Assembly: GCA_002238665.1 (NCBI GenBank)
Contig: MPMU01000021.1
Location: 1-33,611 of the forward strand
Source: Gammaproteobacteria bacterium bin55
GTDB taxonomy: Bacteria > Pseudomonadota > Gammaproteobacteria > Pseudomonadales > Azotimanducaceae
DNA length: 33,611 nucleotides
Direction: 5' to 3'
Shown: one piece after another, positions 10,057 through 20,733 of the stretch
Position numbering within the stretch: the first letter of the stretch is position 1
Layout: each line of letters starts with the position of its first letter
The notes under the pieces: model-generated
The model's input: the letters and a program-made list of their open reading frames with translations, nothing else
Database searches by the model: none
Told to the model about the DNA's origin: nothing
Position numbers and translations under genes: made by a program

Positions 10057-12462
10057 TCAAGCACTGGCACTCGAACTCAGAGTCTGGATCCGGTCAAACG
10101 AGTCAGTCATATCGCTTAGGAGTGCTTTCTGTAGGGCCTGAAAATCCTCCTGGCCACAAGCTCTTGCCAATGTTTCTTTGACATTCTCGGGAGCATCTTT
10201 CAGCTTGTCATCTGATTGAAGCAGGAGGCTACGTATACCTCGAAAGTCACGCCATAGTTTTGCAGACTTTAGTAAAGCATCTGAGTTAGCGGGATCAAGC
10301 AATTGCACATTTTGTGCTCGTTCAATGATCGCAACGGAATCGGTAGCATCGAGATTCACGAATTCTCTGGCATTTTCAATAAGAAGCTTGCGGGTGAAGT
10401 TTTCTAGATTGTCGCTAGCGTGCTTCAATGCTTCATCAGTCACAGGTTCACTGTCACCGTTGATGTTCTGTGGATGCGACAATCTTTCTACAAGTGCACG
10501 ACCAGCATAGCTATTCATCAAGGTCTGATGGATCAAGATTTTTACACGGCTCACAAATCCTTGTGACCCTGAGCTATCGATGACATGAGAAGAAGTCAGC
10601 CTAAGTAACTCCTCCGGAGTTTCATTGGGTGTGTGAAATGCCTCGAATTCAGCTAATGAGTGCATATTGACCAGTTCAGAGTTTTTCTGCACCTCCGCAA
10701 ATAGCAGATTATTTCGACTGAGACGTCGAATCAACTTGATGAAGCGAGCTCCGATTTTCCGGCTCAATGCCGCAGAATCGTTATCGTATAAGTACGTTAG
10801 TTCTAGCTGGATGCCTGGAACAACCTCGCGCTTACCCAATTCACCAAAAGTCAGCACTACCGCACTCCCATAGGCCGGTTTTCCGAAATCCAGCACGATA
10901 TTGTCAAGTACGAATGAAATAGCGGCATCAGCGACATTAGTCAGCACAATCTGCGATTCGGAAACCGATAAGCTCTCCCGCATCACGTGAATACCGACTT
11001 GAAAGACCTTCTCGTTGATCCATTGACGGGCAATGTCGATTGCTTCCGCGGTATTTTGGTGTGGGTATTCGTCCAACTGCAACTTCATTTCTTCAACTGT
11101 CATTTCGTAAAGCCAGTAGACCACAGCAAGACCCTTTCGAGCAATCTTTTCAAACTCGTCGTCCGGACCAAATCCAGCAGGTAGATCTAGATTCTTGAAT
11201 TCATTGCTTTCCAGACTTCGAATCAAAGAGTGGGAATCTTCCATCCACTCAGCGGCTCGCGGTGACTTGGCATAAATCTCTTCAATGATCTGAAACGCAT
11301 CTGGAAGTGCCATCGTCACTTTGCTGTCGTATGGTCGCCAGTCCTCAATGTCCGGATGGTTCTTGCTTCGCCACGCATCGACTATTGGATCGAGCCAAGC
11401 AAACCATTTTTTCGGGAAAAGAGTGGTTCCTGCCAAACGCAGATAGTGGCTAGGAAGTGCAGGAGATTTGTCATCATCAAAGTGTTGCAGCATTGCAAAG
11501 TGCCGAGTAACGACCGAATGATGATCTGCATGCCGCTGTATGTTGAAGGAGGTTTTGTCTGTAAGACGATAACTACTGCTCCAGGAATGTTGGGGACCTA
11601 CCCTTTCATATCTTCCATTGGGTAGATGGACTCGTCTCAAGCCATAGTGCTGCACGTAATTGATCACTTTCGCATAAACCAAGGAGCAGAAACACAACAC
11701 CAGATAGAGTAGGAGTGCCCACCAACCTCCCAGATAGAACACGATGGCATACCAAACTGCCAATTGAATGGCAAACCGCCAGAACGGGTTTGTGTAGTGC
11801 AGGAACGACCTGCGGCGGATGGCTAGATTATCTCGGATTACTCGGTACACTCCGATTAATCCATCCTTGAGCTCACGAGGCAAATAGCTCCAAAAGCTCA
11901 GACCCTTGGGCGCGGACCCAGAGTCCGCAGGTGTGCCTACTTTTGCATGGTGAATATATAGGTGTTCCACGGAGTAGTGTGGATAGGAAACGGACGCGAA
12001 AAGAAACTCACCAAGTCGGCGTTCCCAAAGCGAACGACGATGGATCAGTTCATGACCGGCGACGTAGGTCAATCTACCTACGCAGACCAATGCAATTGCG
12101 ATCAATACAGATTCCCAGAGAGCTAGATGGCCAGAAACAAATATTTCGTATAGAACCACGACCAATGTGATCATCCACGCAACTGCCCAGATAAATAGTG
12201 CAGCTGAGTACAGGAATAACTTAGATTCTGGAGTGTAACGAGCGTCGAGGTTACGTTTGTCGTTGCCGAAGAAGCGATCCCAGAACCCGGTGACAAGCAA
12301 GTAAGTTAGAGGTAACGCGATCCACTCGCCCCCATAAACAGAAGCGAGAATCAGACACGGGAATGCAAGAAGTGGAATGAAATACGGAAACGCGTGACCA
12401 ATCGAGGGATTAATCGTTGGAGACGATGTCGAATTTACATTGCCATCTGTGGGTGCTTGCAT
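10057..12462 (-). CDS. Fusion of AlkB-type alkane hydroxylase with a degenerate GlnE-like adenylyltransferase domain
   Basis: The 801-residue protein has two parts. Residues 1-370 form an integral-membrane di-iron hydroxylase of the alkane 1-monooxygenase/desaturase family: about six hydrophobic helices and all four histidine motifs, HELIH (137-141), EHLYIHH (166-172), NYVQHYG (268-274) and QRHADHH (309-315). Such enzymes hydroxylate terminal carbons of alkanes or related chains and need rubredoxin, which is not seen here. After a linker, residues about 480-780 resemble one half of GlnE: VADAAISFVL (510-519), VVLTFGELGKREV (535-547), IQLELTYLYD (551-560), FIKLIRRLS and LAEFEAFH (603-610). In active GlnE the corresponding motifs are GMGKLGGREL, SDIDLIFLYD and VDMRLRP. 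Here the metal-binding DxD and the RLRP motif are lost, so nucleotidyl transfer is unlikely and a regulatory or binding role is inferred. It has its own upstream gap and is inserted between rplI and dnaB. Confidence 0.85.
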   Translation of the reverse strand: MQAPTDGNVNSTSSPTINPSIGHAFPYFIPLLAFPCLILASVYGGEWIALPLTYLLVTGFWDRFFGNDKRNLDARYTPESKLFLYSAALFIWAVAWMITLVVVLYEIFVSGHLALWESVLIAIALVCVGRLTYVAGHELIHRRSLWERRLGEFLFASVSYPHYSVEHLYIHHAKVGTPADSGSAPKGLSFWSYLPRELKDGLIGVYRVIRDNLAIRRRSFLHYTNPFWRFAIQLAVWYAIVFYLGGWWALLLYLVLCFCSLVYAKVINYVQHYGLRRVHLPNGRYERVGPQHSWSSSYRLTDKTSFNIQRHADHHSVVTRHFAMLQHFDDDKSPALPSHYLRLAGTTLFPKKWFAWLDPIVDAWRSKNHPDIEDWRPYDSKVTMALPDAFQIIEEIYAKSPRAAEWMEDSHSLIRSLESNEFKNLDLPAGFGPDDEFEKIARKGLAVVYWLYEMTVEEMKLQLDEYPHQNTAEAIDIARQWINEKVFQVGIHVMRESLSVSESQIVLTNVADAAISFVLDNIVLDFGKPAYGSAVVLTFGELGKREVVPGIQLELTYLYDNDSAALSRKIGARFIKLIRRLSRNNLLFAEVQKNSELVNMHSLAEFEAFHTPNETPEELLRLTSSHVIDSSGSQGFVSRVKILIHQTLMNSYAGRALVERLSHPQNINGDSEPVTDEALKHASDNLENFTRKLLIENAREFVNLDATDSVAIIERAQNVQLLDPANSDALLKSAKLWRDFRGIRSLLLQSDDKLKDAPENVKETLARACGQEDFQALQKALLSDMTDSFDRIQTLSSSASA

Positions 12463-16959: not shown

Positions 16960-18726
16960 TTAGTTTGTCGCGTGACCTAGCAGCGCTAGATCGACGAGGA
17001 GTTCACTAGTATTCACGTTTTTCACCATCGCGCTGACCTGATCTCCTATACGGAACGCAACTTGTGTTGCCTCACCGACAAGCCCATCTTCACCTAACAC
17101 GTAGCGATCCTCGGGATGTAAATCACCTACATAGATGCGACCTTGAACTGCATACCGATCAAAGTCCACGTACACACCATCTTCAGTTAAGTTGACAATG
17201 ACACCAGTGTATTTCTTGTTCTGAATTAGTTGTGCCCGGCTACACATGAGCCAATTACTTAAAAAGTGGGTGATTTGCTGTCCCTTCAACGCATTCTTGG
17301 ACTGGTGATTCGCAAACTCGTCGCCTGACAGAAAGGAATCTGCTGAATTCTCATCGCGCAGTAATTTCTTCACTACTCGTTGGTTATGGAGATCTGAATA
17401 CCTTCTCAACGGAGAGGTGAAATGCATGTAAACGTCCAATGCCAATCCAAAATGCCAGTTCGGCGTGGTTGAATACTCTGCTCTCAGAACCTTTGTCACT
17501 TCTCGTAGGTCTCTGAGCCACATTCGAGATGTCCTACAGGAATCAACGATGTCAGCAAAAACGCGCCGTATGTTTCGGTCACCACTCTTGTAGAACATGT
17601 CGTCTAGTTCTTTGTACGAGACAGCCCGAACTAGATCTCTGAGACATTCTCTGGTAGGGGCGGCTTGAACGCGGAACAACGGCGGCAGACTTTTCGAACT
17701 TCCTTGGCATCGATTCTCGACCCAGTTAGCGACGGCGTAATTCGTAAAAATCATCAACTCCGCAATCGCCTTGAGTGCTAAATTGTCGCTAGATACATCC
17801 CTCTCTGTTGTTCGGGCATACTCATTCTCGTATAGGCTCTCACCGTCTGCAAATTCCAATCCGCCTCGTCGAATCCGGTTTATCTTCAGTTTGTTAGTCA
17901 GGTGCTGTAGTTCCTGCAATGAGGTCTTAACTTCCTCATCTTCAATATTCTCTAGTGCACCATGGATAAAGAATCCTTCAACGCTGTCGTAGTCAAGTTG
18001 CATTCGTGACCGGACGCTGGCTTCGTACATCTCAACATTGACCAAGGTACCTTCGGAACTCACTTCCAGACTACATACGATTGCCGGACGTTTCTGTGTT
18101 GGTAGCAACGAGCAAAAGTCCTCAATCATCGCCATGGGGTATAGAGGAACTACGCAACCTGGCAGATAGACTGAGGTACCTAACTGAGCGGCTTCTTGAT
18201 CAATCGAATCTCCTGCATAGACATACTCTGCTACATCTGCGATTGCAACCACAGCCTTCCATCCGCCAGTTGCTAAGCGTTTCACAAAAACTGCATCATC
18301 GAGCACAATCGAAGTGGGGCCGTCTATCGTGACGAATGGCAGGTCACAAAGATCTGTTCTAGCCCTTGCTCTCAAAGGCGTCAACGACGAACCTATGTAA
18401 TGTCCAAGTAAATCTTCTGCAACTAAAGGATCTCGACCGAACAAAACTCGCGCGAAACGAAGCAGCTTCTTTTTCTCGTATCCACTAAGATTTTCTTCAA
18501 TGACGCCCACTAGTTTCTGTTTCGTATGTGCGTGCTCCCGGATGGACCCTACCATCACGAGCATCCCTTCCTCAAACCCGTGTTCGTCCTGTACATCTAC
18601 CTTCTGTTTATAACCATCAGGGATGCACTGAATTTCAGGAAGTACCAGCTCAACATAAGGCCTTTTACCAGACTTCTTCAGGGTCCCAACTAAATATTGA
18701 GGCACATTAGGACTGTCTACTGTCAT
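16960..18726 (-). CDS. RNase R-like paralog with altered active site
   Basis: This 588-residue RNB-family protein is adjacent to and clearly related to the RNase R gene upstream. Order: cold-shock-like domain (1-85), RNB domain (about 125-470) and S1 domain (from about 510, GVIVNLTEDGVYVDFD). The usual active-site run has four aspartates, as in DGxxxxDFDD. Here it reads TIDGPTSIVLDDAV: Asp135, Asp143 and Asp144 remain but the second aspartate is Val141. The ALSN motif is also changed (MIEDFCSLL), while the RNA-binding TSPLRRYSDLHNQR is kept. In RNase II the four aspartates hold the catalytic metals, so lowered or absent exonuclease activity is inferred; RNA binding is likely intact. ATG at 18726 follows GGATAAGG. 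It lies 29 bp before rlmB, in the position normally held by the end of rnr. Confidence 0.88.
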   Translation of the reverse strand: MTVDSPNVPQYLVGTLKKSGKRPYVELVLPEIQCIPDGYKQKVDVQDEHGFEEGMLVMVGSIREHAHTKQKLVGVIEENLSGYEKKKLLRFARVLFGRDPLVAEDLLGHYIGSSLTPLRARARTDLCDLPFVTIDGPTSIVLDDAVFVKRLATGGWKAVVAIADVAEYVYAGDSIDQEAAQLGTSVYLPGCVVPLYPMAMIEDFCSLLPTQKRPAIVCSLEVSSEGTLVNVEMYEASVRSRMQLDYDSVEGFFIHGALENIEDEEVKTSLQELQHLTNKLKINRIRRGGLEFADGESLYENEYARTTERDVSSDNLALKAIAELMIFTNYAVANWVENRCQGSSKSLPPLFRVQAAPTRECLRDLVRAVSYKELDDMFYKSGDRNIRRVFADIVDSCRTSRMWLRDLREVTKVLRAEYSTTPNWHFGLALDVYMHFTSPLRRYSDLHNQRVVKKLLRDENSADSFLSGDEFANHQSKNALKGQQITHFLSNWLMCSRAQLIQNKKYTGVIVNLTEDGVYVDFDRYAVQGRIYVGDLHPEDRYVLGEDGLVGEATQVAFRIGDQVSAMVKNVNTSELLVDLALLGHATN

Positions 18727-18930: not shown

Positions 18931-20733
18931 CTATCTTCGTGTCGACGCGGTTTCTTCGTGTTCCCTACGCAATCCCAAGTCAACGTACCCTAGTATCGGA
19001 TCAACAGACTTAATCCACACTTTGAGCTTGTCCCCAAGTGAGTATGTAGCACCACTCCACTCTGCCACTAACTTCTCGTTTTCAAGTTCGTAGTACTCAT
19101 GCCCAAGTTTGGATATATGGATTAACCCAGACGTCAAGTGTTTGTCCAAATCGACAAATAGACCAAAGCTAGTCACACCACTCACTATCCCTGTATCAGT
19201 CGTACCAATACGTCTTTCAACCCATTTGCAAGTTAGCCACCGGTCGACGTATCTACTCATTTCGTCAATCTCGCGTTCGAGGTTGGATTGGCGTTCCGAG
19301 TATGAGGTTAACTCCTCCTCATCTTGCTCGATAGGTCGTTGGTGAATGACATCCTTAAGTAGCCTATGGTTGTACAAATCTGAATAGCGTCTTATCGGCG
19401 AGGTGAAGTGCAAGTATTGATCCAACGCGAGACCGAAGTGCCCTTGATTCGTAAAGGAATATCGTGCTGGCGGTAGATTCTTAACCAACTGAAAGTTCCA
19501 AAACGGTGAATTTCCTTTCTTCTTTGCTAAATCCTTGAAGAACATTTGGAGTGGTCCCTCACGGTATTCTTCGATTTTGCTAGGCAGATTTTTCATACCG
19601 AATTGATTTCCCACTCGATACAAAGATTCTTCATCCGGTGGCTCATGCACTCGATACATGGGTTTACAGTGTTGAGCCAATTTCTCAGCTACCACCTGAT
19701 TAGTAAGCACCATCGCTTCTTCAATCATTTGATGTGCAAAGTTTCGCTCCGTGAGATAGACACCTGTCGGCTCGTTATTCTCAATTTGAACCGATGCCTC
19801 TGGAATGTCAAAATCAAGACCGCCGCGCTCGCTTCTTAGCTCTAATCGTTTCTCACAAAAGCTCTTTAGAGAATACAGTGAATCTCGGATAGAAGCATCT
19901 TGAACTTTGTTTTCATCTCCGGTCTGCAGAAGTCGATTGACCTCACCGTAGGTAAGACGAGCATGCGACCTAATCACCGCCTCTTGGAAGCTCACCTGCT
20001 TTACTACCCCAGATTCATCAATGACCATTTCCGTAGTCATTGCAAGACGGTCCTCTCCTGGCACCAGGGAGCAAATACCGTTGGAGAGCTGCTCGGGGAG
20101 CATTGGTATCACGCGAGTTGGAAAATACACTGAAAATCCGCGACTCTTTGCCTCCTGATCAAGCTCTGAATTGAGCTTGACGTAGTGTGCAACATCGGCT
20201 ATGGCAACAACCAGCTTCCAGCCTCCTGTTGGAAGGCTTTCCGCATAGACTGCATCATCAAAATCTTTGGCAAAGCGCCCGTCAATCGTGACCAGAGGTA
20301 ATGACCGCAGATCGACTCGACCCTTAATATCTTCCTGATCAACAGTGCTAGGAAACTTCTGTTCCTCAATTGCACTTAACCACGTACGAGAACGCTTCTT
20401 AGCCAGCAAGGCCGTATTGACGGCAAGATCAAGCGTATTTGCACCTGAAATTTTTTGACTGACTTTCCCCCGATAAGCGCCGCTCTTTCGGATTATTCCA
20501 TCGACTATCACCACGTCACCATGTTGGAAACGATGAGCGTCTTGAACCAGAACTTCCTCCTTAATTTCGGACAGAATCGGTTTGGCATATGGACGTCCAC
20601 GGTCCATAAACAATAATCCCACAATACCGTTTTGCACCCGCCGCGGATACTTCTTCTTAACTGCCCGCGCATCAGAATTCTGCTGTTGCTTTCTAGCTGT
20701 CTTGCTTCTAATTGACTTAGATTCTCTACTCAT
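18931..20733 (-). CDS. rnr: Ribonuclease R (3'-5' exoribonuclease)
   Basis: RNase R degrades structured RNA from the 3' end and takes part in RNA quality control and trans-translation. The 600-residue protein has a lysine/arginine-rich N-terminus (SKSIRSKTARKQQQ), one recognisable cold-shock-like domain (about 34-100), the RNB catalytic domain and a C-terminal S1 domain (GIVSGVTSFGLFVDLDKHL). The active-site run is intact: TIDGRFAKDFDDAV with Asp151, 157, 159 and 160. VIPMLPEQLSNGICSLVPGEDR and FTSPIRRYSDLYNHR are also present. It is shorter than E. coli RNase R (813 residues), lacking the N-terminal helix-turn-helix and the lysine-rich tail. It has no good ribosome-binding site, and a -10-like TATACA lies six bases before the ATG. 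The tRNA-Leu / rnr / rlmB order matches many gammaproteobacteria. Confidence 0.93.
   Translation of the reverse strand: MSRESKSIRSKTARKQQQNSDARAVKKKYPRRVQNGIVGLLFMDRGRPYAKPILSEIKEEVLVQDAHRFQHGDVVIVDGIIRKSGAYRGKVSQKISGANTLDLAVNTALLAKKRSRTWLSAIEEQKFPSTVDQEDIKGRVDLRSLPLVTIDGRFAKDFDDAVYAESLPTGGWKLVVAIADVAHYVKLNSELDQEAKSRGFSVYFPTRVIPMLPEQLSNGICSLVPGEDRLAMTTEMVIDESGVVKQVSFQEAVIRSHARLTYGEVNRLLQTGDENKVQDASIRDSLYSLKSFCEKRLELRSERGGLDFDIPEASVQIENNEPTGVYLTERNFAHQMIEEAMVLTNQVVAEKLAQHCKPMYRVHEPPDEESLYRVGNQFGMKNLPSKIEEYREGPLQMFFKDLAKKKGNSPFWNFQLVKNLPPARYSFTNQGHFGLALDQYLHFTSPIRRYSDLYNHRLLKDVIHQRPIEQDEEELTSYSERQSNLEREIDEMSRYVDRWLTCKWVERRIGTTDTGIVSGVTSFGLFVDLDKHLTSGLIHISKLGHEYYELENEKLVAEWSGATYSLGDKLKVWIKSVDPILGYVDLGLRREHEETASTRR

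Follow-up and report, generated by a model that had tools for sequence, protein, structure and literature searches.

An AlkB-type oxygenase fused to a GlnE half without its catalytic aspartates in Gammaproteobacteria bacterium bin55, and its relatives in srp-type proteusin clusters

The fusion protein and its lost active site

Contig MPMU01000021.1 of Gammaproteobacteria bacterium bin55 (assembly GCA_002238665.1) was analysed over positions 1 to 33,611; this whole stretch of 33,611 nucleotides is called the window. Between rplI and dnaB, an open reading frame on the minus strand (10057..12462, 801 amino acids) encodes an AlkB-type di-iron oxygenase fused to one half of GlnE, the glutamine synthetase adenylyltransferase/removase, and this half lacks its three catalytic aspartates. 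A preliminary description of the window had proposed an AlkB enzyme joined to a catalytically dead GlnE-like domain. The fusion was confirmed, with profile searches, comparison with PDB sequences, the model fold and trees all in accord. All features of the protein given below lie on the minus strand.

The membrane oxygenase part comprises residues 41–362 (11377..12342) and was identified with Pfam and the PDB AlkB entries 8f6t and 8sbb; comparison of the model with these entries also gave an AlkB fold. The histidine motifs are intact, as had been described: all nine histidines are present in GHELIHRR (residues 136–143; 12034..12057), EHLYIHH (residues 166–172; 11947..11967), NYVQHYG (residues 268–274; 11641..11661) and RHADHH (residues 310–315; 11518..11535). 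They are 100% conserved in an alignment of 46 distinct fusions that includes the window protein. Among 80 fusion frames from named genomes (see below), the patterns of motifs 1–4 were missed in 7, 4, 6 and 0 frames, respectively. Four of the failing frames end at a contig edge before the motifs, three (L112, L151 and L154) keep the histidines in the alignment of 46 fusions, and L100 is the remaining one. Hydropathy separated the AlkB helices poorly.

The glutamate of the third motif, NYxEHYG, is regarded as defining for the AlkB family. It is present in 8f6t and 8sbb and replaced by glutamine in all 46 distinct fusions (Gln271 in the window protein), so the fusion is filed as an AlkB-type oxygenase and not as a proven alkane hydroxylase. 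The nine histidines and the fold are common to the window protein and AlkB alkane 1-monooxygenase (Fontimonas thermophila AlkB, 8f6t in complex with AlkG, and 8sbb). The fusions differ from it in their C-terminal GlnE half, in the glutamine of the third motif and in the position of the relatives within a peptide cluster. AlkB-AlkG fusions have rubredoxin at the C-terminus, where the present fusion has the GlnE half.

The GlnE-like domain comprises residues 386–801 (10060..11307), with lead-in helices at residues 386–470 (11053..11307) and a degenerate nucleotidyltransferase palm at residues 531–600 (10663..10872). A Pfam profile check of the C-terminal half, as proposed in the preliminary description, returned a GlnE-like match. 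The model fold of this part is that of one GlnE half, and its match to 1v4a starts from residue 372 and includes the lead-in. The one-half fold is common to GlnE (1v4a, 3k7d) and the fusion domain. Unlike GlnE, the window protein has only one nucleotidyltransferase half, with AlkB standing in place of the other, has no catalytic aspartates, and belongs to a family whose lead-in is better conserved than its palm.

The loss of the metal-binding SDIDLIF motif, also claimed earlier, was borne out by alignment. The GSDxD motif of canonical GlnE reads G-I-Q-L-E in the window protein, with Q552 and E554 at the aspartate positions (Q552-L553-E554; 10801..10809). The third aspartate, that of EVDxRLRP, is a valine (V591). 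The palm was in frame in 79 of the 80 named fusions (L084 has none). The first aspartate of DxD was lost in 78 of these 79 readable sequences and the third in all 79. Only L151 (404-2824, in a record named Deltaproteobacteria) keeps both aspartates of DxD (GADLD), with the third gone; it perhaps represents an early state of the decay. Both DxD motifs are kept in the 19 best-matching GlnE proteins of the phylum sample outside the own genome.

Relatives and descent of the GlnE-like domain

The same architecture was looked for in other genomes and found, including a second copy in the own genome. This copy lies on contig C165 (locus L047), has 797 amino acids and is 38.6% identical to the window copy over 777 columns. 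An assembly error, which had been considered as a possible source of the fusion, was rejected because this copy and the relatives share the architecture. Within the genus (18 genomes), at least one fusion occurs in 16 genomes, and two fusions occur only in the own genome. At the family level, 29 of 150 genomes carry a fusion: 27 in one frame (one of them cut by the contig end) and two as pieces.

Scanning named genomes with a profile led to 170 confirmed loci, of which 80 were kept for the counts of named fusions. They span Pseudomonadota, Myxococcota, Nitrospirota, Nitrospinota, Latescibacterota, Gemmatimonadota, Acidobacteriota and Binatota, and nearly all are titled as metagenome-assembled genomes. 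Judged from isolate names, most carriers come from sponges, and the bacteria are probably sponge symbionts. The frame has at least 775 amino acids in 74 of the 80 loci; five are contig-cut, and L084 (403 amino acids) stops before the GlnE half. In a genome scan with the C-terminal half of the window protein, none of the 44 pattern matches was confirmed as a relative, whereas the profile scan did find relatives. Two further candidates were set aside: a match on a Tistrella plasmid has both DxD motifs and is a canonical GlnE, not a fusion, and an NHLM exporter frame running into AlkB (L048) looks like an assembly join artefact and was left out of the architectures considered.

The same kind of domain was also found at the C-terminus of resistance-nodulation-division (RND) permeases in family relatives, in frames of 1167–1708 amino acids, the shortest of which are contig-cut or broken. 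RND-GlnE occurred in 13 of the 150 family genomes, and 13 of 13 also had AlkB-GlnE (p 3.7e-11), an association confounded by kinship and habitat. By eye, the RND-GlnE loci (L035-L041, L044-L046, L049, L051 and L054) often lie beside a membrane-fusion-subunit-like gene.

Seven GlnE proteins appeared to be half-dead (L162, L163, L167, L168, L169, L170 and L171; frames of 930–1002 amino acids). They keep SSDIDLI in the first half and have lost the first DxD aspartate in the second, with the second aspartate kept in L163 and L170. Five further GlnE proteins compared alongside them keep both DxD motifs. One genome (G080) has a half-dead GlnE (L163) plus a canonical one (L164).

The AlkB-fused domains, the RND-fused domains and the half-dead GlnE halves each formed one group in the tree, within canonical GlnE. 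Support in the Shimodaira–Hasegawa-like approximate likelihood ratio test (SH-aLRT) was 100 for the clade of AlkB and RND domains and 86 for this clade with the half-dead GlnE; in an earlier tree, support was 100/99 for the AlkB group and 100/100 for the RND group. The sequence comparison thus indicates that the fusion domain descends from a GlnE adenylyltransferase half. The RND-fused domain is a sister dead GlnE domain, likewise C-terminal on a membrane protein; it differs from that of the AlkB fusions in sitting on an efflux permease, in lying outside a peptide cluster and in showing no conservation shift (see below).

Gene neighbourhood of the relatives and of the window copy

In one set of 24 loci, fusions besides the window copy are present in 22; the fusion frame of L065 runs into N and was for this reason filtered out. 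The usual gene row of the 22 loci is: HlyD-like protein, NHLM exporters ABC1 and ABC2, NHLP leader-cyclase-like fusion, AlkB-GlnE, YcaO, a 372-aa protein, an opposite-strand precursor, LolA-like protein, DUF1302-like protein and tryptophan halogenase. Part of these loci are cut or rearranged relative to this row. The 80 named loci, many of them contig-cut, contained YcaO in 78, the 372-aa protein in 68, the cyclase-like gene in 62, ABC2 in 56 and the halogenase in 33. When only the 46 loci flanked on either side by 6.5 kb or more were counted, the numbers were 45 (YcaO), 43 (372-aa protein), 43 (cyclase-like), 39 (ABC1), 39 (ABC2), 38 or 39 (precursor, by two methods) and 27 (halogenase). The closest neighbour was YcaO, which in 77 of 80 loci follows downstream of the fusion on its strand.

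The precursor matches leader_NHLP (E 5.7e-20). A short precursor frame was found in 56 of the 80 named loci and ends in GLCCCW in 54, in GLSCCW in one and in LCCCGW in one. A further precursor search gave 66 distinct matching frames after deduplication, 62 ending in GLCCCW and one in GLCCCL; one was not a precursor. In two papers, SrpE from marine sponge microbiomes has the core LCCCW, with SrpC carrying out its cyclodehydration and SrpI its bromination (PMC10858898, PMC10286304), and a third reports srp-like clusters in two of three sponge species (PMC9426513). The relatives are assigned to the srp proteusin cluster because LCCCW core, YcaO and halogenase match the published one. The NHLP-leader precursor with this core, YcaO and tryptophan halogenase were found at the relatives and on the own-genome contig C165, whereas the window copy sits outside such a cluster.

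Two partners in the row stand out by their domains. The 372-aa protein (L055:13754-14869 and relatives) has no sequence family match, and its model fold is that of ABBA/DMATS prenyltransferases; on this modelled fold, the partner is a prenyltransferase. The cyclase-like protein (L055:7613-8938, L047:9794-11095) joins an NHLP leader domain and a squalene-cyclase-like enzyme in one chain, so that the leader appears as part of an enzyme. A smaller cluster (L240:1-11303, on contig C180 of genome G122) lies beside an srp cluster and comprises HlyD, ABC1, ABC2, AlkB-GlnE, the prenyltransferase and a precursor ending in GLCCCL; no YcaO, halogenase or cyclase was found there in 19 kb.

No precursor, YcaO, halogenase, prenyltransferase, cyclase or other cluster gene was found in the 33.6-kb window. 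The fusion was also not conserved next to dnaB, which had been raised as something to check: 103 relative-bearing loci (some contigs counted twice) yielded no dnaB and no rplI, and none of the 17 congener dnaB loci holds a fusion, though 16 of them hold rplI. The gene fits its surroundings in base composition, with a GC content of 0.475 (0.481 at third positions) and the same value of 0.475 for the window. The window copy lies on a long branch, and its position among the fusions was unsure in the trees. On the sequence data, it is a paralog of the C165 cluster copy that stands alone and diverges fast. With its open frame and intact histidines, the window copy is inferred to be functional, and it probably catalyses an oxidation of the same kind, either in trans or with a related substrate.

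Contamination as the source of the window contig was unsupported. The tetranucleotide correlation was 0.91 between window and C165, 0.69–0.82 for other own contigs (3–5 kb each) and 0.71–0.88 for congener loci, which is a weak separation. RpoB (contig C17) and PurA (contig C60) of the own genome are both distant from congeners (55–62% and 50–58% identical, respectively). Both observations support, and do not prove, that the contig belongs to the genome. An own RpoB about 60% identical to its congeners also indicates that the genus is deep.

Three side observations concern the same genomes. The own RpoB (L239:1785-7625) has 1946 amino acids, compared with stop-to-stop frames of 1364–1473 amino acids in most congeners, and by eye the additional length lies within the N-terminal 900 residues. 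Congener DnaB proteins (L198-L214) fall into groups only ~30–40% identical to each other, and the window DnaB is 31–36% identical to all 17. Two adjoining RNB-domain exonuclease genes lie in the window at 16960-18726 and 18931-20733.

Proposed role and alternatives

Conservation within the GlnE-like domain is concentrated in the lead-in. In 16 AlkB fusions, the mean frequency of the top residue was 0.72 in the lead-in and 0.56 in the palm; in the 46 distinct AlkB fusions, lead-in and AlkB part had equal values (0.81 each), with the palm at 0.59. The pattern was reversed in 24 canonical GlnE proteins (lead-in 0.35, palm 0.65), a soft control because their lead-in aligns weakly (most of the full-length profile matches listed start at position ~70–94 of 408 or later). 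Ten lead-in residues are common to AlkB and RND fusions (W406, E421, L425, G432, R442, G444, L445, R447, E453 and M459), and the window protein has nine of them (V447 instead of R447). Their frequency was 0.00 in the 24 canonical GlnE (E421: 0.04) and 0.00 in the seven half-dead GlnE, values to which the weak alignment may contribute.

Owing to the lead-in conservation and the shared residues, the GlnE-like domain is read as a binding surface and not as a catalytic unit; as judged from sequence, it may well be a non-catalytic cytosolic docking module. Partner binding, one of the roles suggested earlier for the dead domain, is the best supported. We give a probability of roughly 0.5 to the reading that the protein is an AlkB-family membrane di-iron oxygenase that tailors a ribosomal peptide and uses the GlnE half as a cytosolic dock. 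The GlnE-like domain would sit next to the active site, on the cytosolic face of the membrane, and there hold either a partner enzyme or, by the structured leader, the precursor peptide. The AlkB part would then oxidise the docked peptide or a chain attached to it.

Several observations weigh against this reading. The 14 RND fusions showed no conservation shift (lead-in 0.64, palm 0.66), and the three compared sets differ in breadth. The low lead-in value of canonical GlnE may be partly an effect of alignment. RND-GlnE loci lie outside a peptide cluster, so the domain may not bind peptide. Decay of the active site is incomplete in the family: the second aspartate is still D in 42 of 79 readable fusions and E in 20 of 79, and L151 keeps the whole DxD. 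Modelling was poor in parts of the lead-in (predicted local distance difference test, pLDDT, <50 at 420–427 and 443–449) and in the AlkB iron-site region (<50 at 272–357). Neither partner is invariant: no prenyltransferase was detected in three of the 46 full-flank loci (L146, L156 and L158), and in its second cluster G122 has a prenyltransferase and no YcaO in 19 kb. Finally, the window itself is free of detected cluster genes, and the substrate of the long-branched window copy may have changed.

Within the reading as a peptide-tailoring oxygenase, prenyl-chain, meroterpenoid-like chemistry is the most economical option, held tentatively. The 372-aa partner would prenylate the peptide, and AlkB would epoxidise or hydroxylate the attached prenyl chain within the membrane. 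Cyclisation of the chain would fall to the leader-fused squalene-cyclase-like protein.

It is possible, if rather doubtful, that the AlkB part instead oxidises the peptide core, for example YcaO-made thiazolines or a side-chain carbon, with the GlnE-like domain docking on YcaO. The position of YcaO next to the fusion (77 of 80) fits this, as do two loci (L153 and L156) with YcaO and no detected prenyltransferase. A missing partner could also explain why, as PMC10286304 reports, recombinant SrpC was poor and SrpE only partly modified. None of nine scanned cluster proteins matched an azoline oxidase, although no search was aimed at one. Against core oxidation stands the second cluster of G122, where AlkB-GlnE, prenyltransferase and precursor occur without a YcaO in 19 kb; a YcaO could be supplied to it by the srp cluster that shares its contig (L052). 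Moreover, no AlkB-type enzyme is known to us to oxidise azolines.

An ordinary alkane, fatty acid or lipid hydroxylase, in which the GlnE half only stabilises or localises the enzyme and the window copy works in lipid metabolism, is unlikely. The AlkB fold with all nine histidines, the position of the window copy outside any peptide cluster and a rubredoxin gene in 17 of the 18 genus genomes, including the own, would agree with it. However, the relatives are tied to the peptide cluster in most loci, and a lead-in as conserved as the oxygenase would be needless for a mere tail.

GlnE is a nitrogen regulator, and the preliminary description had suggested that hydroxylation of the chain is perhaps linked to the nitrogen or nucleotide status. 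A dead GlnE half acting as a sensor that couples the oxygenase to this status would fit its descent, and is nevertheless improbable. No canonical GlnE was found in the 18 genus genomes with PF03710 at E 0.001 (15 of 18 are at least 90% complete, three are below), and the canonical adenylylation circuit is thus not evident in the genus. The PF03710 matches were AlkB-fusion frames of 799–808 amino acids only, and seven genomes had no match; a 916-aa frame, which we guess to be GlnD, stayed below the cut-off at 19.3 bits. The context of peptide modification and the near absence from canonical GlnE of the lead-in residues common to AlkB and RND fusions also speak against a sensor, and the suggested link was left unsupported.

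Residual transfer of a nucleotide or other group by remaining or relocated acidic residues is very improbable: the palm is modelled confidently (pLDDT 85–93 at 531–600) and the second position stays acidic in many fusions, with the whole DxD in L151, but the third aspartate is lost in 79 of 79 fusions and the first in 78, the window protein has none of the three, and conservation of the palm is low (3 of 70 columns reach 95% in 46 AlkB fusions).

An AlkB-GlnE fusion was not found described in the titles and abstract openings listed by searches of the open-licence literature, a weak negative that covers this literature only. The words alkane, hydroxylase, GlnE and desaturase do not occur in the main text of PMC10858898, nor does alkane in the available part of PMC9426513. 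As far as this literature was available, only the YcaO and the brominase of the srp cluster have been characterised so far.

Three further conserved srp enzymes can now be named (AlkB-GlnE, the ABBA-fold prenyltransferase and the leader-fused squalene-cyclase-like protein), with a testable order of steps. Taken as a whole, it is conceivable, though speculative, that a dead GlnE half turned into a portable docking domain on two membrane proteins unrelated to each other, an AlkB oxygenase and an RND permease, and that within srp it serves a ribosomal meroterpenoid route of YcaO thiazolines, prenylation, chain oxidation by AlkB and closure by the leader-tagged cyclase. The dead GlnE half was re-used on membrane proteins, and the half-dead GlnE and the DxD-bearing L151 may represent steps of its decay.
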